A stretch of DNA of 46,732 nucleotides from Clostridia bacterium (lineage in GTDB: Bacteria > Bacillota > Clostridia > UBA1212 > UBA1255). Under the pieces are notes generated by a model, which saw only the letters and a list, made by a program, of their open reading frames with translations, did not search any database and had not been told where the DNA came from. This document shows positions 31,738 to 41,935 of the stretch, piece after piece. The translations under genes were made by a program, and so were the position numbers. The stretch's first letter is position 1. Each line of letters opens with the position of its first letter. The stretch is taken from contig JAFZEI010000091.1 in NCBI GenBank assembly GCA_017560765.1, positions 1-46,732 on the forward strand, read 5' to 3'.

Positions 31738-33234
31738 ATGAAAAAACTTAAAATTATAGGCTTAATAGGTGTGTTTTTACAACTTGTTTTTTCGATTATT
31801 GCAGTGTCACTTATAATTAAATTAGGAGTTTTGCCTGATTTCTATATATTTATGGTTGTATTTGTTGTTGCACTGCTGTTTTTTATTTCTGTATTGTTTG
31901 TGATTGGCAGGTCGCGTTTCAGGGTTGGCATTGCAACCATATTCTCTGTATTACTCTCTGCTTTTTTGGCAGTTGCTTCTTTTGTATACATTATGCCGGC
32001 GATTAATATGTTAGACGATATTACTACAGTAAAGCAAACATATTTGGCAACATATCACATTATCGTAAAAGTTGATGATCCTGCGGTTAAACCTGATGAT
32101 ATAAAAGAATATCACATTGGTGTTGAAAAAAGTCATGACTTTGATGCAATGAAAAAAGCTCTCGATGGGTTGGCTGCAGAATTTAACCATACATTAAATG
32201 TTATTGCGTATGATAATTATACTAATATGTGGAATGCTTTTATAGGAAAAGGCGAAACGGGTGCTATTCTTATGGAGGCAAATTATTATAATATTTATAA
32301 AGAATATTACACGGAGCAAAAGGATAACATAGAAAATTACGTGAGGGTTTTAGGCGATATAAAAGTTGAGATGGAGCATACTGACGACGAGAATAACGAT
32401 AAACCAGAAAGCACGGTAAAGAAGGACGTTACAGTAGATCCTTTTGTTGTGTATATCAGCGGTATTGATGTTTCGGGCAGTATAAACCAAAGAAGTCGCA
32501 GCGATGTAAATATTATTATGGCTGTCAATCCAACGACAAAGAAAATAACATTGGCGACAGTGCCGAGAGACACGTACGTGCAAATTCCGGGGGTTACCGG
32601 CAATTATTACGATAAATTGACTCATGCGGCAATTTATGGCAAAAATGACTGCTCTGTATCTATCAAGACATTGGAGCAAAATGTATATCAGGGAATAGAA
32701 GTTGATTATTGGATAAGAGTTAACTTTACTTCTCTTGAAAAAATTGTAAATGCGTTAGGTGGTGTAGAGGTGTATTCCGAATACAGCTACACGTCCACTT
32801 TCTCAGGTGAGAAGGTATACTTCAAAAAGGGTATGAATACAATGAGCGGATGGAAAGCGTTGATATTCAGTCGTGAGCGTGTAACCGTACCGGGTGGCGA
32901 GCCGCAGAGAGGCAAAAATCAGCTTGAGGTTATAAAGGGTATTTTTAACAAAATTACCTCACCGGCTATTTTGACAAGCTACAATGATGTCCTTGATCAG
33001 TTAAGCGAAAATTTCCTTACAAATATTCCTACAGAGCATATAACTGCTCTTGCTAAGATGCAGTTAGAGGATGGTGCGTCTTGGGACTTTGAGACGATTT
33101 CCGTTGGTGTAGAGTATAAATATGATTATTGCTACACAATGATGGATTACGGTAAGCTTTGTGTTGGAGTAATGGACGAGGCTAATCGCCAAGAGGCTAT
33201 ATCAAAACTTAAAGCTACCCTTGGAGAGAAGTGA
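31738..33234 (+). CDS. LytR-CpsA-Psr (LCP) family protein 2
   Basis: The 498-residue product is colinear with LCP protein 1 along its whole length: three N-terminal helices, the same pre-LCP domain (ILMEANYYNIYKEYYTEQKDNIENYV matches IIESTFYKMFEEL... in protein 1), and an LCP core with DVSGSINQRSRSDVNI, TVPRDTYVQIPG, VNFTSL and FSRERVTVPGGEPQRGKNQ. It arose by tandem duplication. AAAGGA precedes ATG 31738. Its 3' end overlaps convergent spoIID by 20 bp. The two enzymes may attach different polymers or act redundantly. Confidence 0.88.
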   Translation: MKKLKIIGLIGVFLQLVFSIIAVSLIIKLGVLPDFYIFMVVFVVALLFFISVLFVIGRSRFRVGIATIFSVLLSAFLAVASFVYIMPAINMLDDITTVKQTYLATYHIIVKVDDPAVKPDDIKEYHIGVEKSHDFDAMKKALDGLAAEFNHTLNVIAYDNYTNMWNAFIGKGETGAILMEANYYNIYKEYYTEQKDNIENYVRVLGDIKVEMEHTDDENNDKPESTVKKDVTVDPFVVYISGIDVSGSINQRSRSDVNIIMAVNPTTKKITLATVPRDTYVQIPGVTGNYYDKLTHAAIYGKNDCSVSIKTLEQNVYQGIEVDYWIRVNFTSLEKIVNALGGVEVYSEYSYTSTFSGEKVYFKKGMNTMSGWKALIFSRERVTVPGGEPQRGKNQLEVIKGIFNKITSPAILTSYNDVLDQLSENFLTNIPTEHITALAKMQLEDGASWDFETISVGVEYKYDYCYTMMDYGKLCVGVMDEANRQEAISKLKATLGEK

Positions 33235-34282
33235 TTTGAGAAAGTTCGATGCCTGTATAATAATGTTTTAAAATTTCCTCATAGTCGGCACCGTTTAAAG
33301 CCATAGCCTGGGCGCCGCATTGACTCATTCCGACACCGTGACCGTAGCCTAATGCTACAATAGCGACAGAAGAGCTACCCTCGCCGGAGTGAACATCAGA
33401 AAAATAAATATTTGAAGAGCGCAGTGAAAACATTGCTCTTATTTGAAGTCCTGTAAAGGTGATGCCGCCGATTTCGGCAGAAATTATTCGCCCGGAGGGA
33501 CTTCTTTTTATGTTTTTTACATTTGCTGTACCGGCTTCGTTATCACAAACGGCGCTACTGTTATAATTTGTCACAGCATTGGCAAAATCGCTTAGCGAAT
33601 AACTTTTTACTTGGCAATAATCGTAAAAATCTGCTTCTCCCGGACTGGAAACACTTTTTAAATAGGGATAAGGACTGCCTCCCCAAACATTCTCGATGGA
33701 TTCCGTATTGCCGCCGCTGTTTGAAAAGTAAAGTGCGTTTATGCACTTTCCGTTGTATGTGGCGATGATGTTTTCTGTAGCTTTTACTGCTTTTGTTATC
33801 GCCTCAGGATATACGGAATTTTCTTCTCTTGGCGTCCAGGCTTGGCAATGTGTGTAGTCTGTGCAAATATCTGCTCCGCCGGCGTGAGAGATTCCGTTGT
33901 ATATTCTGTAAAGTGTGTAGGAACGGGCGGCTATAGCTTGTGCTTTAAGCGCTTCTTCGCAGTAATATGATGGGACTTCGCCGTACAGTACGCCGGAAAT
34001 GTACTCGTCCAATGACATTTGACGCACGATTTTCTCTTTGTGGAAATAGACTTTTATTGTTATTTCGTCTTTAGTGTTTGGGATGTATTTGTCTTTGTTG
34101 GAATTTTTGATGAAATCAAACATGCCGGAAATCATTCGGGCTGCTTGTATTGTCTTTTTGTTTGTGGCTTTTGTTCCTGTTTTTGCCAAAACGGAGTGGC
34201 CGCCGATGGATGCTGTGCATACGAGCACAAGTAAAAACGCAAAGGTTTTTTTGATTTTTAATGAATTGAAAGTTTTTTTCAT
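33215..34282 (-). CDS. spoIID: SpoIID/LytB-family peptidoglycan lytic transglycosylase
   Basis: The 355-residue product has an N-terminal signal/anchor (about 10-33) and the SpoIID domain: MSLDEYISGVLYGEVPSYY with the catalytic Glu, EALKAQAIAARSYTLY, and a C-terminal GHGVGMSQCGAQAMALNG. SpoIID degrades peptidoglycan during forespore engulfment. Length and motifs fit spoIID. AGGAGG lies about 8 nt before the ATG. Upstream on the minus strand, TATACATT (34333-34326) resembles a sigma-E -10, but no good -35 is seen. It could instead be a SpoIID-like paralogue, since it is not in the usual spoIID context. Confidence 0.82.
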   Translation of the reverse strand: MKKTFNSLKIKKTFAFLLVLVCTASIGGHSVLAKTGTKATNKKTIQAARMISGMFDFIKNSNKDKYIPNTKDEITIKVYFHKEKIVRQMSLDEYISGVLYGEVPSYYCEEALKAQAIAARSYTLYRIYNGISHAGGADICTDYTHCQAWTPREENSVYPEAITKAVKATENIIATYNGKCINALYFSNSGGNTESIENVWGGSPYPYLKSVSSPGEADFYDYCQVKSYSLSDFANAVTNYNSSAVCDNEAGTANVKNIKRSPSGRIISAEIGGITFTGLQIRAMFSLRSSNIYFSDVHSGEGSSSVAIVALGYGHGVGMSQCGAQAMALNGADYEEILKHYYTGIELSQITSLQG

Positions 34283-34351
34283 AATTTATTCCTCCTTGTT
34301 TTTGACTTTGCCCAAGAAATTGTAAATGTATACAAGATCAGGAAGGGTTTG

Positions 34352-34381
34352 TTGACTTCGTATGGTGATTTGACGTATACT
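34352..34381 (+). promoter_or_regulatory. Promoter of cassette 1 (X1)
   Basis: TTGACT (34352-34357), an 18-bp spacer and TATACT (34376-34381). Base for base it resembles the promoter at 36698-36726, and it directly abuts leader repeat A1. Confidence 0.65.
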
Positions 34382-34382
34382 T

Positions 34383-34470
34383 TAAAAACTGAAAGCAATG
34401 ATGGCAGATATACTTTTCTGATTTATTAGTTTTTCACTCGCACCGGAGGGAGTTTTTAGAAAATATTAAT
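34383..34470 (+). repeat. Leader repeat A, copy 1
   Basis: About 88 bp, nearly identical to 36959-37047 (one substitution, C/T, in the first 74 bp). It spans from just after the promoter to a strong GGAGGG (34445-34450). Here the start codon seen in copy 2 (TTG) is TTA, and the frame behind it closes after about 20 codons, so this copy's own ribosome site has no gene. The translated gene begins 58 bp further on. Confidence 0.85.
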
Positions 34471-34527
34471 GCAGTTGCTGTTGAAGTTGAATTATGTATG
34501 GGATGTAAAGATTGAGGGGTATTACGA

Positions 34528-35142
34528 ATGATTATAAAAAAGATTGAAGTTAAAAGTGATTGTTCTGTTTACTGCAAGTCGCGTTTTTATTCGGCAGTGA
34601 ACGGGCTTTCTGAGAATTCGGTATACACTTTTACAACGGGAATAAACAAATTTCACGGAGAAATTGATTCGGAAATTTGGGCTGTAAGTTATCTGCTGTC
34701 TATGTACACACACAGACCGAAGGACTGTATAATGTTTAATGAACCTAACATTCTTGTAAATGATGAAATTATGTCTCTAAAAGAATTTGCTAAGTATTCT
34801 TGTTATATGGATAAAATATACCCATTGTTTTCGACTAAAGTTTCCGTCAAAAACTTGGTAAAAAAAGGCATAAAAAAAAGCAAGATAAATTTATCATATA
34901 TGGATGTCAAGAAAATATTTGATCTTGATGACCAACGCTTTGAAAGACCGTTGAGTTGTGTCGGAAATGAAGTTTTCAGGGCTATGGCGGCGGTGGGCTT
35001 GTCGTATAATAAAGAAGTTTTTTGTTTTCCGTGGTTAAGCTACGAAAGGTATGAGGGTTACCATAAAAATTTGTGGGGATTAATGGATATATTGGAAAGC
35101 TTAGGTAAAATTGCCATCGTTCCCGTAGGGAAGAAAAACTAA
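34528..35142 (+). CDS. X1: ABC-ATPase-like protein lacking nucleotide-binding residues
   Basis: The 204-residue cytoplasmic protein has the order of an ABC ATPase but not its chemistry. A segment resembling Walker A is TTGINKFHGEIDSE (36-49), without GxGKS. Residues 141-171 follow the signature-to-Walker-B spacing of ABC proteins (LSCVG for LSGGQ, then RAMAAVGL, then a hydrophobic EVFCF), but the Asp-Glu pair is replaced by Pro-Trp. It is likely a regulatory or binding protein rather than an ATPase; this relation is inferred from the motif pattern alone. GAGGGG (34514-34519) supports the ATG. The gene is flanked by leader A1 and a strong terminator. Confidence 0.65.
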   Translation: MIIKKIEVKSDCSVYCKSRFYSAVNGLSENSVYTFTTGINKFHGEIDSEIWAVSYLLSMYTHRPKDCIMFNEPNILVNDEIMSLKEFAKYSCYMDKIYPLFSTKVSVKNLVKKGIKKSKINLSYMDVKKIFDLDDQRFERPLSCVGNEVFRAMAAVGLSYNKEVFCFPWLSYERYEGYHKNLWGLMDILESLGKIAIVPVGKKN

Positions 35143-35161
35143 GGACGTGTTGAAACATTTG

Positions 35162-35205
35162 CAAACACATCATTTTGGATATTCCGAAGTGATGTGTTTG
35201 TTTTT
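35162..35205 (+). terminator. Terminator of X1
   Basis: CAAACACATCA (35162-35172) and TGATGTGTTTG (35190-35200) form an 11-bp perfect stem, followed by five T residues, 19 bp after the X1 stop. Confidence 0.92.
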
Positions 35206-35396
35206 GACTGAAAATGGAGAGATTTGTGGTTTTTTGATGGAGACTTTTGCGGTATTGTAGCAACAATTTCCCTCAAAGAGTCAATCGTCATTTCTATGTT
35301 TACTGTTCCAAAATGGTGTTTGTGTAAAGATAAAAGTGTAATGTAACATTACAGCTTCGTTGGAATTATAGAATTGAAATTTTTTGAAATTTTTGT
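35206..35396. other. AT-rich spacer with a 17-bp perfect palindrome
   Basis: No convincing coding region is seen. At 35337-35353 lies TGTAATGTAACATTACA, two 8-bp arms around one base, which looks like a dimeric repressor site. It is about 200 bp before the Y1 promoter and is absent from the second copy of the locus. Confidence 0.5.
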
Positions 35397-35679
35397 CTGT
35401 GGCTTATTCGGCACTTTTGTCCCTTTTGGTTTATTAAGGAAAAGCAATACTTTCCCGCTTTTTAAAAATCACCCCGAAAACAGGAGCTGATATTTTAGTT
35501 CTCGTGTGACATGTTCAAAAATGCTTGAATCAGCTCTTTGTATATATAAAAAATATTGACCTAATACAAAAATATCAGTATACTTACGATAAAACAAGAA
35601 GAAAAAAATCAAATACTAATCGAGTGATAAATGCTGAAAATGTTGTGATTGTTTTTGTGGAGGGGTAAAAATGAAAAAA
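35397..35679 (+). repeat. Leader repeat B, copy 1 (upstream region and promoter of lipoprotein Y1)
   Basis: The 283-bp copy matches 37663-37941 along its length with scattered changes and small indels. It contains a conserved stem GAGCTGAT/ATCAGCTC (35484-35491/35529-35536), a promoter TTGACC (35556-35561), 17 bp, TATACT (35579-35584), the ribosome site GGAGGGG and the first codons of the lipoprotein. Similarity stops within the signal peptide. Confidence 0.88.
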
Positions 35680-36621
35680 TTAGTTTCAACTATTGTTGGT
35701 GTAATAATATCCATGGTGACTTTGTGCTCTTGCAGTTCATCTCCGTTAATATCAGAGTATATGCCTGATAGAGTGGTAAGAAAAATTAACTATAACAACT
35801 TCATAGGTGGTAATAATTATATTGATTATTCTGATAATAAATTTGCATTCTTAAATATGAATACTCTAACTATTATGGATACAAATGGGGATAGTCAAAA
35901 AATAAAGGGTGTTTCTGCGCCGTTTCAACTTCATAAGGAAAATGTATTATTTGTTCAGAAAGGTACACTTTTTTTAAAAAATATTGATACCGGCGATAAA
36001 ATAACGATTGCCGAAGATGTAAATCACTTTATTTTACATGACGATAAGATTTTATATAGTGCACAGAAATACAGTAAACTATACAGCTATGGTTTGGAGA
36101 ATTGTGAAACTACAGAGTTATATACAAGTGAAAAAATAAGACAATTTTCTGTTTATGAGGATGAAATATTTATAATTGACGAGAAAGACTGTCTTATCAA
36201 AATATCTTTTGATGGTAAAGAAACACAAACTTTACTGCAACTTGATATATATGGCTATCCATATAAAGTTTTGCATATTAAAGATAAAATTATAATGCAA
36301 TATTATAACTCGATTGAAATCATAGATTTGAAAGCAGGATCAAAAGAAAAAATAACGATTGATGAAGATCAGAATGCTAACAATAGATTTTCTTTCATTT
36401 GTGATGATGAGCATATATACGTTTCGTATGGAGTAAGAAACACGGATGGTTCTATAGTAACTGATGTGGAAAGTGATAAAAACGGAGTGTGGAGAATTAA
36501 TATTTCTACAAAACAGAAAGAAAAAATCTCACCTGTGGTTTTTTCAGCGTTGTTTTTATATGATGGTGATTTGTTGCTTGGATATGTAGATGGTAAAATA
36601 CAACAAGTTAATAAAAATTGA
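35671..36621 (+). CDS. Y1: beta-propeller-like surface lipoprotein
   Basis: The 316-residue product has a lipoprotein signal (lipobox TLCSC) followed by repeats of short beta-strand units (such as NVLFVQKGTLFLKNIDTGDK and DEIFIIDEKDCLIKIS), typical of propeller proteins of the DUF5050 kind. It should face outward on the membrane, perhaps as a binding or sensing protein; no enzyme motif is seen. It is expressed from the repeat-B promoter and closed by a terminator. The downstream paralogous position holds Y2, which shares the promoter and propeller style but little sequence beyond the signal peptide. Confidence 0.75.
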   Translation: MKKLVSTIVGVIISMVTLCSCSSSPLISEYMPDRVVRKINYNNFIGGNNYIDYSDNKFAFLNMNTLTIMDTNGDSQKIKGVSAPFQLHKENVLFVQKGTLFLKNIDTGDKITIAEDVNHFILHDDKILYSAQKYSKLYSYGLENCETTELYTSEKIRQFSVYEDEIFIIDEKDCLIKISFDGKETQTLLQLDIYGYPYKVLHIKDKIIMQYYNSIEIIDLKAGSKEKITIDEDQNANNRFSFICDDEHIYVSYGVRNTDGSIVTDVESDKNGVWRINISTKQKEKISPVVFSALFLYDGDLLLGYVDGKIQQVNKN

Positions 36622-36644
36622 TACAGTTCAGGTTGTTTATGAAG

Positions 36645-36682
36645 ACACACTACTTTTGTTGAAACGGGGCAGTGTGTTTTTT
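36645..36682 (+). terminator. Terminator of Y1
   Basis: ACACACT (36645-36651) pairs with AGTGTGT (36671-36677), followed by a T run to 36682; it lies 23 bp after the Y1 stop. Confidence 0.75.
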
Positions 36683-36697
36683 GTGTCTATAAAAAAG

Positions 36698-36726
36698 TTG
36701 ACTTCATATAGGAATTTAATTATACT
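36698..36726 (+). promoter_or_regulatory. Promoter of cassette 2 (X2)
   Basis: TTGACT (36698-36703), a 17-bp spacer and TATACT (36721-36726). The spacer aligns with the promoter at 34352-34381 (TTGACTTC-TAT-G--ATTT-A), so the two are copies. Confidence 0.65.
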
Positions 36727-36728
36727 TG

Positions 36729-36958
36729 TAACGAAATAACCGCCAAAGACTATGTTTTTTTATTTGCCCAAATCTATGAAAAACAGTTTACCACTTATAA
36801 ATTCCTGAAAATGGGTATATTCATGATGCTGAGACTGCTGGAATAGCGGGAGATGCAATGGCTGACAGATTAACTATTTGAAGAGTTTTGCTTAGAGGAT
36901 TATAACTGCTTAAAATTTATAAGAAATGCCAAGTGTTGCAAGGGAAGAGATATTAAAA
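36729..36958. other. About 230-bp segment inserted between promoter and leader A2
   Basis: In copy 1 the promoter touches leader A; in copy 2 this segment separates them. It has no complete gene. A short open stretch (about 36811-36880, giving YIHDAETAGIAGDAMADRL) ends at a stop and may be the tail of a lost gene. No terminal inverted repeats are obvious. Confidence 0.55.
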
Positions 36959-37047
36959 TAAAAACTGAAAGTAATGATGGCAGATATACTTTTCTGATTT
37001 ATTAGTTTTTCACTCGCACCGGAGGGAGTTTTTTGAGAAATATTAAT
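36959..37047 (+). repeat. Leader repeat A, copy 2
   Basis: The second copy of the sequence at 34383-34470. Here GGAGGG (37021-37026) is 6 nt before a usable TTG start (37033), so the leader directly feeds gene X2. Confidence 0.85.
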
Positions 37048-37656
37048 ACTATTGATAACTATCAAAAAGAAATTGAAAAAAGAGCTTTTATTTTAAATAA
37101 GGTTCGCAATAAAACTAAAATATCGCCTAATGAACGATTATGGCTTATGACGCATTCGGTCTACAATCAGAAATGGGGTAATGATGCGTTTAATATATCG
37201 GTTGAACACATTAAGCCAAATGAATGGTTTTTAGTTAAAGTGCGAGTGGAATCTGTATCTCATGATGGAAGAATTATTCCAATTTTGTCTGCCGTTCCAG
37301 CAAAAAAAGGACAAATTGTTGCTGATTTTGGGATGTGTAATTACAATGGCGAACTTATAGAAAACAAAACAATTAAAGCGATTGGATTTGAATTAAGGGA
37401 TATTGATTGCGAATACGAGGTACGTTTTTTTTCTGATTTAGGTCTTATTTCGGTTCAGTATGAATGCGATTACTTTGATTTAAAACAAAAACTTAATAAA
37501 CGTGAAGCTTCAAGTAGTGGAAATCCTGATTTTGCCATGAAAAGACAAGAAATTGATCAAAATACAGTTAGATATTATTGTAAATCTCCTAATACTAATT
37601 CTTTTGATGCATTGATATTTACTGTTCATTGGGAAGAGTTTATTGAAAAGAAATAA
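37033..37656 (+). CDS. X2: uncharacterised cytoplasmic protein
   Basis: The 207-residue product is not recognised. It has a charged helical N-terminus (about 1-35) with NERLWLMTHSVYNQKWG, then a region predicted by eye to be rich in beta strands (about 50-140), a Lys/Arg-rich stretch (148-170) and a final strand region. No signal peptide or membrane helix is seen. The TTG start is chosen from GGAGGG 6 nt upstream. It occupies the same place as X1 relative to leaders A and B but shows no similarity to it. No terminator lies between X2 and repeat B2. Confidence 0.7.
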   Translation: MRNINTIDNYQKEIEKRAFILNKVRNKTKISPNERLWLMTHSVYNQKWGNDAFNISVEHIKPNEWFLVKVRVESVSHDGRIIPILSAVPAKKGQIVADFGMCNYNGELIENKTIKAIGFELRDIDCEYEVRFFSDLGLISVQYECDYFDLKQKLNKREASSSGNPDFAMKRQEIDQNTVRYYCKSPNTNSFDALIFTVHWEEFIEKK

Positions 37657-37662
37657 TCTCAC

Positions 37663-37941
37663 CTGTGGCTTATTCGGCACTTTTGTCCCTTTTGGTTGAT
37701 TAAGGAAAAGTAATACTTTCCTGCTTTTTAAAAATCACACCGAAAACAGGAGCTGATGTTTTAGTGTTCGTGTGACATGTTCAGAAATGCTTGCGTCAGC
37801 TCTTTATATATAAAAAATATTGACTTAATACAAAATATCAGTATACTTACAATAAAACAAGAAGAAAAAATTAAACATAAATCGAGCGATAAATGCTGAA
37901 AATGTTGTGATTGTTTTTGTGGAGGGGTAAACATGAAAAAA
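37663..37941 (+). repeat. Leader repeat B, copy 2 (upstream region and promoter of lipoprotein Y2)
   Basis: The 279-bp copy matches 35397-35679. Its promoter is TTGACT (37820-37825), 16 bp, TATACT (37842-37847). The hairpin is kept as GAGCTGATG/CGTCAGCTC (37750-37758/37794-37802): where copy 1 has an A-A mismatch, copy 2 has a G-C pair, and a neighbouring T-A becomes T-G. The copy begins 6 bp after the X2 stop. Confidence 0.88.
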
Positions 37942-39423
37942 GTTCTTAGTGTTATTCTTAGTGTTATTCTTATTTTCGTGATGTTTGGTTGCAAACAAGA
38001 AGTAGATACAACCTTAGAAAAAGATAAAAATACTGTTGCTGCATCAACACCTACACCGACGCAAACACCTGAAAGTGGCAAAAATTCTACTTGGTATAAA
38101 AAAATTAAAACAAACGTGTGGGGTCCGTTTGATGTTGTTGAAACTGACAGCAGTTATTTTTATTGTGCGACTGACGGTGTTTATGAGTATGTCAAGGGTG
38201 GAAATGAAATTCGACAAATTATTTCCGACGAAGCACACGGTTTACTTTTATTTGATAATGATTTGTATGTCAATCTGTATGACAGTATAAAGAAAATTGA
38301 TTTAGATACGCGAATGATAAGCAATGTGTGGGACGTGTCTATGTTAGACAACAAAAATATTATATACGACCATATATTTGGCTTTGAAATACACGATAGT
38401 TATTTATATATTTGGTCTTTAGCTAATTCTATATTTAGAGTGAATCTTGAAGATGGTACGGCAGAACCATTTCTTGAAAATGCTTATCATGTGGTATTTA
38501 GAGAAAATGATTGTCTTTATATTGATCACCATGCGACAAATACATTTTCGGTTTATTCTGTAGATTACATAACAAAAGAACAGCGCCTTATACGAGGCGA
38601 TGGTAAAAATAGTACAGAAAACAAAACTGTCTACATTGACGATTTATTAAAAGTCGGAGAAGATGTTTTTTATTCGGATCGTCCCACAGGAAAAATATAT
38701 AAATTAAATGATAACGGGGAAGATCAAATCGTTGTAAGTGTTGATACTTCAGCAAATACAGACGCACTCAATTATGTTGATTTTATTTATTCTTGCTCTG
38801 AAGAAGAGTTGTACTATAAGGTTAGCAACAAAGAAGGTTACAAATTGTATAGGTATAATTCTAATGGAGAAGATTTGTTTATCGATGAGTTTAAAAAAGA
38901 CGTGAGAATTATAGCAATTACTGAGTCATCTGTTATATATGGCGACGATAATACAGTTGATTGTAAGATTATATCTTCATCTAAAGACCAAAACACTGTT
39001 GCTGCATCAACGCCTACACAAACAACTACGACGGAAAAATATACGCTGGTTGTGCAGGGGCAGGACATCACACAAGGGAATCATGTAAATTTTTGTGAAA
39101 ACCCTAAATATGTTGCATTACCGTTTACCGCAGTGATGAAAGCGTTAGGAGCAAAGATTCAACAGAAGAGTGAAAACATAATTGAGCTCAATTTTAACAG
39201 TGAAACATTTGTTCTTGATACGAAGGCAGTTACCCTTGTAAAGGCCGAAAGTAGCACCAATTTTATTATTCCGGCGCCGGGCAGCAAGGTATATTATCAG
39301 ATTTTAGAAAATGAATTTGTTATTGACAATATCACATTTAACACAATTGCAATGATGATGGGTGTTAAACTTAAGGTTGATATTAATTATCAACAGCATA
39401 TTGTAGAAATTGATTATCAATAA
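37933..39423 (+). CDS. Y2: propeller lipoprotein with C-terminal copper-amine-oxidase-N-like domain
   Basis: The 496-residue lipoprotein has the lipobox VMFGC and a Thr/Pro linker (about 33-46), then a DUF5050-like propeller region (about 50-350), a second linker repeating the first (KDQNTVAASTPTQTTTT, about 354-370), and a C-terminal domain (about 375-496) with YVALPFTAVMKALGAKI and a final IVEIDY strand. That pattern matches the stalk domain often called copper amine oxidase N-terminal, which is common in clostridial surface proteins. No enzyme motif is visible. It is driven by repeat B2 and probably co-transcribed with the ankyrin gene 15 bp downstream. Confidence 0.78.
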   Translation: MKKVLSVILSVILIFVMFGCKQEVDTTLEKDKNTVAASTPTPTQTPESGKNSTWYKKIKTNVWGPFDVVETDSSYFYCATDGVYEYVKGGNEIRQIISDEAHGLLLFDNDLYVNLYDSIKKIDLDTRMISNVWDVSMLDNKNIIYDHIFGFEIHDSYLYIWSLANSIFRVNLEDGTAEPFLENAYHVVFRENDCLYIDHHATNTFSVYSVDYITKEQRLIRGDGKNSTENKTVYIDDLLKVGEDVFYSDRPTGKIYKLNDNGEDQIVVSVDTSANTDALNYVDFIYSCSEEELYYKVSNKEGYKLYRYNSNGEDLFIDEFKKDVRIIAITESSVIYGDDNTVDCKIISSSKDQNTVAASTPTQTTTTEKYTLVVQGQDITQGNHVNFCENPKYVALPFTAVMKALGAKIQQKSENIIELNFNSETFVLDTKAVTLVKAESSTNFIIPAPGSKVYYQILENEFVIDNITFNTIAMMMGVKLKVDINYQQHIVEIDYQ

Positions 39424-39438
39424 CAGGGAGGCCTTTTT

Positions 39439-40221
39439 ATGAAAAAGAAACTAATAGTTGCCATTTCGATTTTATTCTGTGTATCAGCAATAGGTGCGAT
39501 AATTGTGGCAAATATTCCCCATGTAGAAGCGAAAAAATTGGTTAAAGCTATAAAGGCAGAAAATTGCAACGAAGTTAAAGCGTTACTTGCAGAAGGCGTA
39601 AATCCAAATGTGACGACAACTTCTGATTTTTCAGAGTTTATACTTAACCTCGTAGAAGATTCAGGAGAACGCCCGATAACAGTTGCTTGCGACATCGGAA
39701 ATTTAGAAATAGTCGAAATGCTGATTGCTCATGGAGCGACGGCAGAACCTTCAAAAAAAGGTGGTTGGAGCCCCCTACGCGAAACTTTATTCTACTATCA
39801 GCCCGAAGACAAAAAAATAGTTGAGCTGTTATTAGAAAATGGGGCGTTGGTTAATGAAGATTCCGTATATGAGCCTGTGGTTTTTGTTGCGGCAGAAATG
39901 ATTCCGAAGAAATACGATAAAGAAAAGAGCAGCGGCTCATATTACGTAGGGGATTATGACGCAGAAATAGCACAAGGAATCACAGAAATAGTTTCTTTGT
40001 TGTTGGATAAAGGCAATTATGATGTAAACATTAAAAAGAGTAACGGTAACACATTGTTGATTTGTGCGGCGAAAAGCGGCAATAAATATCTTGTGGAATA
40101 TCTTGTTTCTGCAGGTTGTGATGTGTCTGCCGCGGATGATTTTGATAAAACTGCTATTGATTATGCCAACGAAGAAGGTTTTGAGGATATTGCCGATTTT
40201 TTGTCAAAGGCTATGCAATAA
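39439..40221 (+). CDS. Exported or membrane-anchored ankyrin-repeat protein
   Basis: The 260-residue product has an N-terminal hydrophobic segment (about 4-24) acting as signal or anchor, then about five ankyrin-like repeats; the clearest are RPITVACDIGNLEIVEMLIAHGA, KKIVELLLENGALV and NTLLICAAKSGNKYLVEYLVSAGCDVSAAD. Ankyrin repeats bind proteins, so it may partner one of the neighbouring lipoproteins. A GGGAGG site is followed by ATG 39439, 15 bp after Y2, indicating an operon. Confidence 0.82.
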   Translation: MKKKLIVAISILFCVSAIGAIIVANIPHVEAKKLVKAIKAENCNEVKALLAEGVNPNVTTTSDFSEFILNLVEDSGERPITVACDIGNLEIVEMLIAHGATAEPSKKGGWSPLRETLFYYQPEDKKIVELLLENGALVNEDSVYEPVVFVAAEMIPKKYDKEKSSGSYYVGDYDAEIAQGITEIVSLLLDKGNYDVNIKKSNGNTLLICAAKSGNKYLVEYLVSAGCDVSAADDFDKTAIDYANEEGFEDIADFLSKAMQ

Positions 40222-40232
40222 ATAAAAAGATA

Positions 40233-40248
40233 GACAAATGAATTTGTC
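40233..40248. promoter_or_regulatory. 16-bp palindrome before the LamG-like lipoprotein gene
   Basis: GACAAATGAATTTGTC: 7-bp arms around GA. It lies in the 79-bp gap before the GTG start at 40301. It may be an operator or small hairpin; the promoter itself is not clear (TTGTCA 40244-40249 with TAATAC 40265-40270 is weak). Confidence 0.4.
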
Positions 40249-40300
40249 AATGATAATATATCCGTAATACTAAACTTTTAAATAAGAAAGGAATATTATC

Positions 40301-41224
40301 GTGAAAAGATTTAAAACATGTTTATTAGTTTTATTGACATTGCTTGTTGCAGCATCAATGCTGGTAAGTTGCGGACAAAAAAGTGAATCAGAAGCGACGA
40401 AGGCTCCCTCTGATTCAACAATAGCTTCATCATCGGCGCCTACAGCAACTTCTACAGCTACTTCCACGGAAAATCCCACAGAAGTACCCACAGCAGCACC
40501 TACAGAGGAGCCGACAAGGGCACCTGTAGAGGTAAATAATCCTCCCGAAGGATATAATGCAGAGGACAAAGCTCCGGCTGCCGACTTGTTGGATTTGGTA
40601 TTTGATGGCGAAACAGCAAAAGACGGCTCGGCGTCGCAGTTCGAGATTACAGCTCTTAATGACCCTGTTGTTGATAAAGACAAGACGATAAACAAAACGG
40701 TTGCAGAATTTGCAAAGGAAGACGCATCTATGTATGCGGTATATGATTTTAATTCTTCTGTACATGACAAACTTTCAGATGGCTTTACATTTGAGGTTTA
40801 TGTTATGCTCTATGACGATACAGTTTACAGCTCCATTCTCGGTTATACACAAGCGGGCGGTGTAAGCATAGATTTTGATGAGAATAGAGGCTCCATAGGA
40901 TTCGGAATACGTACTCCCGCCGGTTATGTATACATTTATGATACAGAGCGTATAGATGCGGATGAATATTATCACGTAGTCGGTGTTTATAATGGCAGTG
41001 AAATAAGTCTTTATTGCGATGGAGAACTTATAAAAACATCAGCTGCAGGCGAGCTTGTATTCCCGAGTGTAGCTAAAACATATCTTGGCATTGGCGGTGA
41101 TTTAAGCGGCAATGACCAAGGTGAAGACCAAATGTCAGGAACAATTGCCTTAGCGAGAATCTATTCTGATGCGCTAAATGCATCTCAAGTATATAATCTT
41201 TACTTAGAAGCTGTTCAAGGATAA
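40301..41224 (+). CDS. LamG/concanavalin-like lectin-domain lipoprotein
   Basis: The 307-residue lipoprotein has the lipobox MLVSC (C25), a long Ser/Thr/Pro/Glu linker (about 30-80), and a C-terminal jelly-roll of the laminin-G type (about 95-305): MYAVYDFNSSVHDKLSDGFTFEVYVML, YHVVGVYNGSEISLYCDGELI and GTIALARIYSDALNASQV, the ending typical of LamG_3. It probably binds a carbohydrate or protein at the surface. The GTG start is supported by AAGAAAGGAA, 8 nt upstream. No catalytic residues are evident. Confidence 0.82.
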   Translation: MKRFKTCLLVLLTLLVAASMLVSCGQKSESEATKAPSDSTIASSSAPTATSTATSTENPTEVPTAAPTEEPTRAPVEVNNPPEGYNAEDKAPAADLLDLVFDGETAKDGSASQFEITALNDPVVDKDKTINKTVAEFAKEDASMYAVYDFNSSVHDKLSDGFTFEVYVMLYDDTVYSSILGYTQAGGVSIDFDENRGSIGFGIRTPAGYVYIYDTERIDADEYYHVVGVYNGSEISLYCDGELIKTSAAGELVFPSVAKTYLGIGGDLSGNDQGEDQMSGTIALARIYSDALNASQVYNLYLEAVQG

Positions 41225-41236
41225 CAAATCAACAAA

Positions 41237-41266
41237 AAAGGGACTGTGATAAAAAACAGTCCCTTT
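41237..41266 (-). terminator. Terminator of the leftward potassium-uptake operon
   Basis: AAAGGGACTGT (41237-41247) pairs with ACAGTCCCTTT (41256-41266). On the minus strand the stem is followed by a T run (41239-41234), so it terminates ktrA transcription. The plus side lacks a T run, though the stem may also end the LamG transcript. Confidence 0.75.
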
Positions 41267-41293
41267 AAAATATCTATATAGAATTATTTAGAA

Positions 41294-41935
41294 TTATTTT
41301 AAATTTTTAAAACTTTCAGGTTCGCCCATAATAAACAGAGTTTCATCTTTTAAAAATATGTGGTCTGCATGAGGCATTGGATTTACTGCGCCATCCTTTT
41401 TTGTGGCGAGAATGCTAACATGATATTTGTTGCGGACAGATTTTTCTATAATACTTTTGCCAACCCAGCTCTCAGGAACAGCAATTTCATAAATGGCAAT
41501 TTCGGGAGTAAGCTCCACATAGTCAAAAATATTTTTGGCACCATATTTTATAGCAAGGCGTTCTGCCATTTCTCTTTCGGCATATACAACATGGTCTGCA
41601 CCGTTTCTAAGTAAAAGTTTGCGGTGAACATCGCGAGTAGCACGACAAAGAATGAATTTAGCACCGTAATCCTTTAAAAGAACGGTTGTCTCCAAGGCGC
41701 TTTGAAAATTATCGCCGATTGCCACAACGCATAAATCAAAATTCTCCACACCTAATGACTGTATAAAAAGCTCATTCGTAGAATCACCAATTTCGATATT
41801 ATTAATAAAATTAACTGCATTGTCAGCACGTTCTTCGTTTCTTTCAACAGCAAGAACCGAGTTACCCTCTTCGATGAATTTAGCAGCCATGTGTCTGCCA
41901 AAACGACCAAGACCTATAATTAAAATTGATTTCAT
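41294..41935 (-). CDS. ktrA: Ktr/Trk potassium-uptake regulatory subunit (RCK protein)
   Basis: The 213-residue cytoplasmic gating subunit has a Rossmann RCK_N domain with GLGRFG (8-13) and an acidic residue at the end of strand 2 (VERNEE), and a C-terminal RCK_C domain (about 135-213). A single N+C unit of this size is KtrA-like, unlike the doubled TrkA encoded upstream. It forms a ring on the KtrB dimer and responds to ATP/ADP; the C domain can bind c-di-AMP in relatives. GAGGAGG lies 6 nt before the start. Last gene of the operon, 20 bp after ktrB. Confidence 0.88.
   Translation of the reverse strand: MKSILIIGLGRFGRHMAAKFIEEGNSVLAVERNEERADNAVNFINNIEIGDSTNELFIQSLGVENFDLCVVAIGDNFQSALETTVLLKDYGAKFILCRATRDVHRKLLLRNGADHVVYAEREMAERLAIKYGAKNIFDYVELTPEIAIYEIAVPESWVGKSIIEKSVRNKYHVSILATKKDGAVNPMPHADHIFLKDETLFIMGEPESFKNLK

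Follow-up and report, generated by a model that had tools for sequence, protein, structure and literature searches.

How do two nearly identical sets of apparent control sequences come to stand in front of unrelated genes? The question is raised by a locus on contig JAFZEI010000091.1 of a Clostridia bacterium (assembly GCA_017560765.1; 2.19 Mb in 132 contigs), which was analyzed as a window of 46,732 nucleotides. Two repeats, A and B, each occur twice and alternate with two small genes (X1 and X2) and two lipoprotein genes (Y1 and Y2) in the order A1-X1-B1-Y1-A2-X2-B2-Y2 (Table 1). A preliminary description had taken A for a promoter and leader and B for a further leader and promoter, conserved while the genes behind them were exchanged, as in a cassette system or a diversifying surface-module locus. 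Our analysis points to another origin. The locus is likely to be an orphan (heterogeneous poly-immunity) array left by the turnover of Rhs/YD-repeat polymorphic toxins, which was partly duplicated and whose payloads were replaced.

Nucleotide alignment of the two A cores gave 96.6% identity over 89 columns (E = 4e-36), and alignment of the two B copies gave 92.2% over 283 columns (E = 9e-114), with A and B in the same order in both units. The short A heads resemble each other more than any of 2,000 shuffles (0/2000). Both repeat pairs lie where they were first described, except that 36698-37047 is not one continuous repeat, since the A head of unit 2 is ~230 bp away from the A core. An assembly chimera was considered and judged unlikely; the repeat copies are 3-8% different, and both flanks are syntenic with G001, a genome of the same genus. 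X1 is unrelated to X2 (212 of 300 shuffles score as high as the pairwise comparison, and the profile-profile probability is 0.2%). Profile comparison of Y1 and Y2 aligned the signal peptide alone (probability 3.2%), which is where their similarity had been said to end, and their pairwise score is weak (reached by 12 of 300 shuffles). Neither pair was thus homologous by profile search at the divergence of the leaders. Because unalignable coding regions stand behind junctions that are 92-97% identical, we conclude, in agreement with the preliminary description, that genes were replaced rather than diverged by point mutation.

Repeat A is composed of coding debris. The A1 head translates as LLTSYGDLTYT, 10 of 11 residues of which match the Rhs core of an Rhs protein in the same-genus genome G002 (0/300 shuffles as high), and the DNA at 34348-34382 also matches the G002 Rhs gene (83%). 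The string TTGACT..TATACT in copy 1, which resembles -35 and -10 elements, is Rhs coding sequence. The A core begins with a gene tail (..KTESNDGRYTFLIY and a stop codon), after which come the Shine-Dalgarno (SD) sequence GGAGGGAG and the opening codons of X2. In copy 1, this tail continues the Rhs frame without a break, and the X2-like start is truncated after a few codons. In copy 2, the head and core are separated by Z (~225 bp), a remnant probably of the toxin tip once paired with X2. What had been described as a promoter in copy 1 is therefore Rhs coding sequence, and the supposed leader is a gene tail, a ribosome site, and the first X2 codons, which serves as a warning that a -35/-10-like string within coding debris can be mistaken for a promoter.

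A different toxin remnant stands directly ahead of X1. A block with homology to G001 reaches as far as the X1 stop codon, and its first position, 34492, lies 36 bp ahead of the start codon of X1; these 36 bp read YVWDVKIEGYYE and a stop codon. In four other genomes with an intact Rhs toxin tail (loci L098, L106, L108, and L110), a tail of the form ..PVVSxRPGPIxVWDVQIVG has its stop ≤4 bp from the start of an X1 homologue, and the Rhs open frame in L106 is 2661 aa long. X1 is preceded by fossils of this tail in L099, L100, G001, and the window; the scanned loci contained no other occurrence of the motif. Of 18 X1 loci, 8 have Rhs pieces within 5.5 kb; if the background is taken to be 5-10%, the probability of this by chance is ~1e-6 to 2e-4. 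In G001, the gene before X1, itself behind an Rhs fragment, encodes an immunity protein that scores above the Pfam cut-off for Imm-NTF2-2, and we regard the G001 locus as a sister array. The related genomes with an X1 gene are metagenome assemblies of Clostridia, many from animal gut, and protein searches found no X1 relatives in phages or plasmids. For X2, the closest relative (61%, in G002) overlaps the 3' end of a gene for an 1849-aa Rhs protein, the same protein that carries the A1 motif; no relatives in phages were found by protein search. Since X1 and X2 both have relatives located behind genes for Rhs toxins, we interpret them as putative immunity genes, which argues against a surface-module locus, although Y1 and Y2 are lipoproteins.

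The Rhs toxins in L098 (541-924), L106 (7598-7993), L108 (7633-7968), and L110 (3913-4323) share a conserved tip of ~100 aa (YYHVT.. EGGYVYAW.. PVVSxRPGPIxVWDVQIVG), which could not be matched convincingly to Pfam, NCBIfam, or the sequences of the PDB. A by-eye likeness to ADP-ribosyltransferases (YYHVT..) was backed by no library, and the tip was left unnamed. This tip and its neighbor X1 make up a putative toxin/immunity pair that can be tested.

Repeat B is the place where a dead Y-type gene borders on the Y gene that follows it. Fossils of a Y1-like gene upstream of B and inside its start are collinear with Y1 and in the same frame. These fossils, the Rhs fossil in A, and the toxin-tail fossil before X1 had all been missed in the preliminary description. 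Identity along B is 95% in the gene fossil, 90% in the hairpin, 94% in the promoter, and 90% in the 5' untranslated region (5'UTR); it stays at 90-95% over 35397-35670 and drops to 68% and then 54% from the Y start codon on. The hairpin has a z score of -3.4 in copy 2 and -1.2 in copy 1. Because the dead Y fossil is as conserved as the promoter, the likeness of the B copies reflects a recent common origin and not selection on control regions.

The promoter, hairpin, and SD sequence present in both B copies would suit leaders or regulatory RNAs whose function is maintained by selection, yet identity is uniform across dead and live parts, coding fossils account for A, no further copies of A or B occur in the assembly and no convincing ones in 195 related genomes, and an Rfam scan of the region gave no family above gathering scores, all of which makes such a function highly improbable. 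At 37245-37339, within the X2 coding region, the ribosomal S15 leader of Rfam scored below its threshold (26.5 bits, cut-off 39.5), which is probably a chance hit. It is also very unlikely that the locus arose by an old tandem duplication of an X-Y unit in which the payloads diverged while selection kept the leaders. Such an event would explain why A and B have the same order in both units, and the two Y lipoproteins may both have a beta-propeller fold; X1 and X2, however, are unrelated, X2 has its own start inside A where copy 1 retains only a fossil of that start, and a non-functional fossil in B is conserved to the same degree as the B promoter.

Near-identical arms around unrelated payloads are also what would be expected of a dedicated cassette-exchange or diversifying system, in which A and B serve as homology arms and the genes between them are regularly swapped, and immunity genes of type VII secretion systems recombine at similar short homology blocks (PMC9484751). 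Nevertheless, a nucleotide search of the whole assembly found exactly two copies each of A and B, and a search of 195 related genomes found no convincing copy; the matches in relatives (19-74 nt) look like chance, and a 23-mer from B had zero exact matches in viral contigs. No recombinase was noticed among the open reading frames of the window, which were read by eye and only in part scanned against Pfam, and the arms themselves are chance leftovers from other genes. We consider the cassette system suggested earlier to be improbable.

From these remains, we infer an order of events, a recombination route, and an immunity function for the array. An Rhs tip and its partner X2 would originally have stood at the locus, and the toxin would have decayed to scraps (the A head, Z, and the A core) while X2 was retained. 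Tandem duplication would then have copied part of the unit, comprising the Rhs scrap, the X2 start, the tail of a Y-type lipoprotein gene, the hairpin, the promoter, and a start codon. In copy 1, the X2-like gene would have been cut past its first codons and substituted by an orphan module consisting of X1 and, ahead of it, the final codons of another Rhs toxin gene, and the Y gene behind B would likewise have been swapped just past its start codon. B would give expression signals independent of the lost toxin operon, and the array products probably protect the cell against the Rhs toxins of its neighbors.

Two properties of orphan arrays were found at the locus. Toxin-gene remnants stand ahead of small genes (the A1 Rhs-core fossil and the toxin-tail fossil before X1), and the small genes partner intact toxins elsewhere (X1 in four genomes and X2 once, behind an Rhs gene). 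Of the genes that lie side by side, X1 and X2 are mutually unrelated, and the ankyrin-repeat protein, Y1, and Y2 are only candidate immunity genes. Several observations weigh against an array derived from Rhs turnover. The link between X2 and Rhs comes from one genome, and a distant X2 relative in G384 is solitary, without an Rhs neighbor. The A2 head aligns best at the same Rhs position as A1, yet not significantly against Rhs alone, and the pieces of Z match no Pfam family. There is no nearby Rhs gene at about half of the X1 loci. The tie of Y1 and Y2 to Rhs loci is weak, consisting of an X1-Y2-like pair in G028 and a DUF5050-like neighbor in L110. Distant Y1 relatives in G369 and G349 have surroundings without Rhs matches and were of no help in judging this.

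A structural model of X1 built from a 19-row alignment is confident (predicted local distance difference test [pLDDT], 94.5; predicted template modeling score, 0.91), and its top PDB structure matches are ATP-binding cassette (ABC) nucleotide-binding domains, with template modeling scores to the query of 0.5-0.65. The Walker A motif is absent from all 19 members, and the LSGG and hhhhDE patterns are each matched in only one of the 19; the places where Walker B and the signature would be expected, located by eye, read FCFPW and VGNExF, respectively. We call X1 a predicted pseudo-ATPase because an ABC fold is predicted without the Walker A, signature, and Walker B motifs, that is, a nucleotide-binding-domain fold from which the catalytic motifs are missing. 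X1 has no match among PDB sequences, and PADLOC and NCBIfam returned nothing meaningful for X1, X2, Y1, or Y2. An ABC-ATPase fold without catalytic motifs is unusual among immunity proteins, and this, together with the Rhs-less surroundings at about half of the X1 loci, would suit a protein that accompanies Rhs genes in an accessory or regulatory capacity, or one with a role of its own. However, X1 is placed right behind the last codon of the toxin and is kept behind decayed toxins and beside Imm-NTF2-2, as is typical of immunity genes, and we regard a non-immunity role as unlikely, if worth keeping in mind. Tentatively, and with somewhat more doubt than confidence, X1 may found a new immunity class, in which a motif-stripped ABC domain has become a binder of the Rhs tip without library match and blocks the toxin directly.

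Arrays of this kind are already known; new here are the families of X1 and X2, together with the Rhs tip that was left without a name. Poole et al. (2011; PMC3150448) described orphan modules of Rhs and contact-dependent inhibition systems as fragments of large toxin genes without a start of their own, each followed by a small gene able to give immunity. The window likewise has toxin-gene fragments ahead of small genes, but these have shrunk to scraps in which no tip is intact, and full-length Rhs genes are found apart from the array. Zhang et al. (2012; PMC3482391) described heterogeneous poly-immunity loci, in which immunity proteins of the ankyrin and NTF2 types also occur. The window may likewise hold unrelated putative immunity genes side by side, with an ankyrin protein in the window and NTF2 in the G001 sister array, whereas X1 and X2 match no described family and X1 has a predicted enzyme-derived (ABC) fold. 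Immunity proteins in that large survey were typically unrelated to known enzymatic domains, and the degenerate ABC-ATPase fold of X1, if it is an immunity protein, would be unusual. In Vibrio cholerae, immunity arrays of the type VI secretion system (T6SS) arose from sequential effector displacement (PMC5361080), and old immunity genes were similarly retained after the toxin gene was displaced; the proteins here are Clostridia Rhs proteins rather than T6SS effectors, and the junctions themselves are duplicated. The esaG/tipC arrays, in which recombination takes place at homology blocks of immunity paralogues (PMC9484751), share the pattern of variable parts flanked by short, nearly identical blocks, which lie at the ends of genes and between them, but their variable parts are homologous paralogues, unlike the unrelated X1 and X2 families. 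With this reading, a puzzling "duplicated control scaffold" becomes a legible fossil record of past toxin turnover within an uncultured lineage of Clostridia.

The array lies within an island that is absent from G001, where the KtrA-like and SpoIID-like genes adjoin with a gap of <100 bp. The island is the lowest-GC 7 kb of the window (33.9% versus a window mean of 37.6%) and is a strain-specific, AT-rich insertion. Its ankyrin-repeat protein is a possible further immunity gene. Elsewhere in the genome, there are four large Rhs genes (~1900-2300 aa) on three contigs (C90, C70, and C56; L140-L143), one of which has two, and all four belong to subfamilies other than that of the fossil in A.

Table 1. 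Features of the island and of the two repeat units, in window coordinates.
Feature	Coordinates	Strand	Description	Basis
Island	34283-41290	.	Lies between a SpoIID-like gene (33215-34282, -) and a KtrA/TrkA-like gene (41294-41935, -)	G001 synteny; GC
A1 head	34351-34382	+	Rhs-core fossil coding LTSYGDLTYT	Peptide and DNA match to G002 Rhs
A1 core	34383-34470	+	Gene tail ..KTESNDGRYTFLIY with stop, SD GGAGGGAG, fossil of X2 start	96.6% to 36959-37047; frames read
Toxin-tail fossil	34492-34527	+	Rhs toxin C-terminal end (YVWDVKIEG)	Start of G001-shared block; motif ahead of X1 in 8 loci
X1	34528-35142	+	204 aa, predicted pseudo-ABC-ATPase fold, putative orphan immunity gene	
Hairpin	35161-35201	+	Intrinsic terminator-like, behind X1	19 bp stem, z = -5.2
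Fossil Y0	35325-35379	+	Y1-like gene remnant	78% to Y1 36279-36333, E 8e-7, same frame
B1	35397-35679	+	Fossil Y0 tail, hairpin, sigma-70-type promoter 35556-35584, 5'UTR, SD, Y1 start	92% to B2; promoter pattern
Y1	35671-36621	+	316-aa lipoprotein, all-beta	Low-confidence model and matches; distant relatives only
A2 head	36697-36727	+	Degraded counterpart of A1 Rhs fossil	Likeness to A1 head, 0/2000 shuffles
Z	36733-37005	+	Apparent frame-broken remnant of gene ending in A tail	Frames read, with inference
A2 core	36959-37047	+	End of Z, SD, first X2 codons	Alignment to A1 core
X2	37033-37656	+	207 aa, TTG start, putative orphan immunity gene	61% relative directly behind G002 Rhs gene
Y-type fossil	37647-37678	+	C-terminal part of Y1-like gene, fused to X2 end	88% to Y1 36517-36548, E 3e-5, same frame
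B2	37663-37941	+	Hairpin, promoter 37820-37847, 5'UTR, SD, Y2 start	Alignment, promoter pattern, hairpin z
Y2	37933-39423	+	496-aa lipoprotein, propeller-like domain and C-terminal domain	31% relative in G028
Ankyrin-repeat protein	39439-40221	+	In island	Pfam Ank
Laminin-G-like lipoprotein	40301-41224	+	In island	Pfam Laminin_G_3

The Y proteins are at most distant beta-propeller-like lipoproteins. Y1 is probably a beta-propeller, although it was folded from a single sequence (pLDDT 47) and its propeller matches are thus only a hint. Y2 had no match among PDB sequences; its relative in G028 matches DUF5050 and sits 10 bp behind an X1 gene. That G028 stretch (L092 7133-8780), with an X1 homologue followed ~10 bp on by the Y2-like lipoprotein gene, indicates that X1-type and Y-type genes can pair outside this genome. 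Other genes follow X1 in two Ruminococcus/Mageeibacillus-type genomes (L096 8817-12094 and L097 8832-12112), where the downstream region encodes a lectin-like protein and, in tandem, two small exported proteins that are nearly identical and have the N-terminal half in common. Within Y2, the same linker (KDK/QNTVAASTPT) occurs on either side of the propeller-like domain (38020-38056 and 38983-39019; 89% DNA identity), as though the linker had been doubled when a lipoprotein took up the domain.

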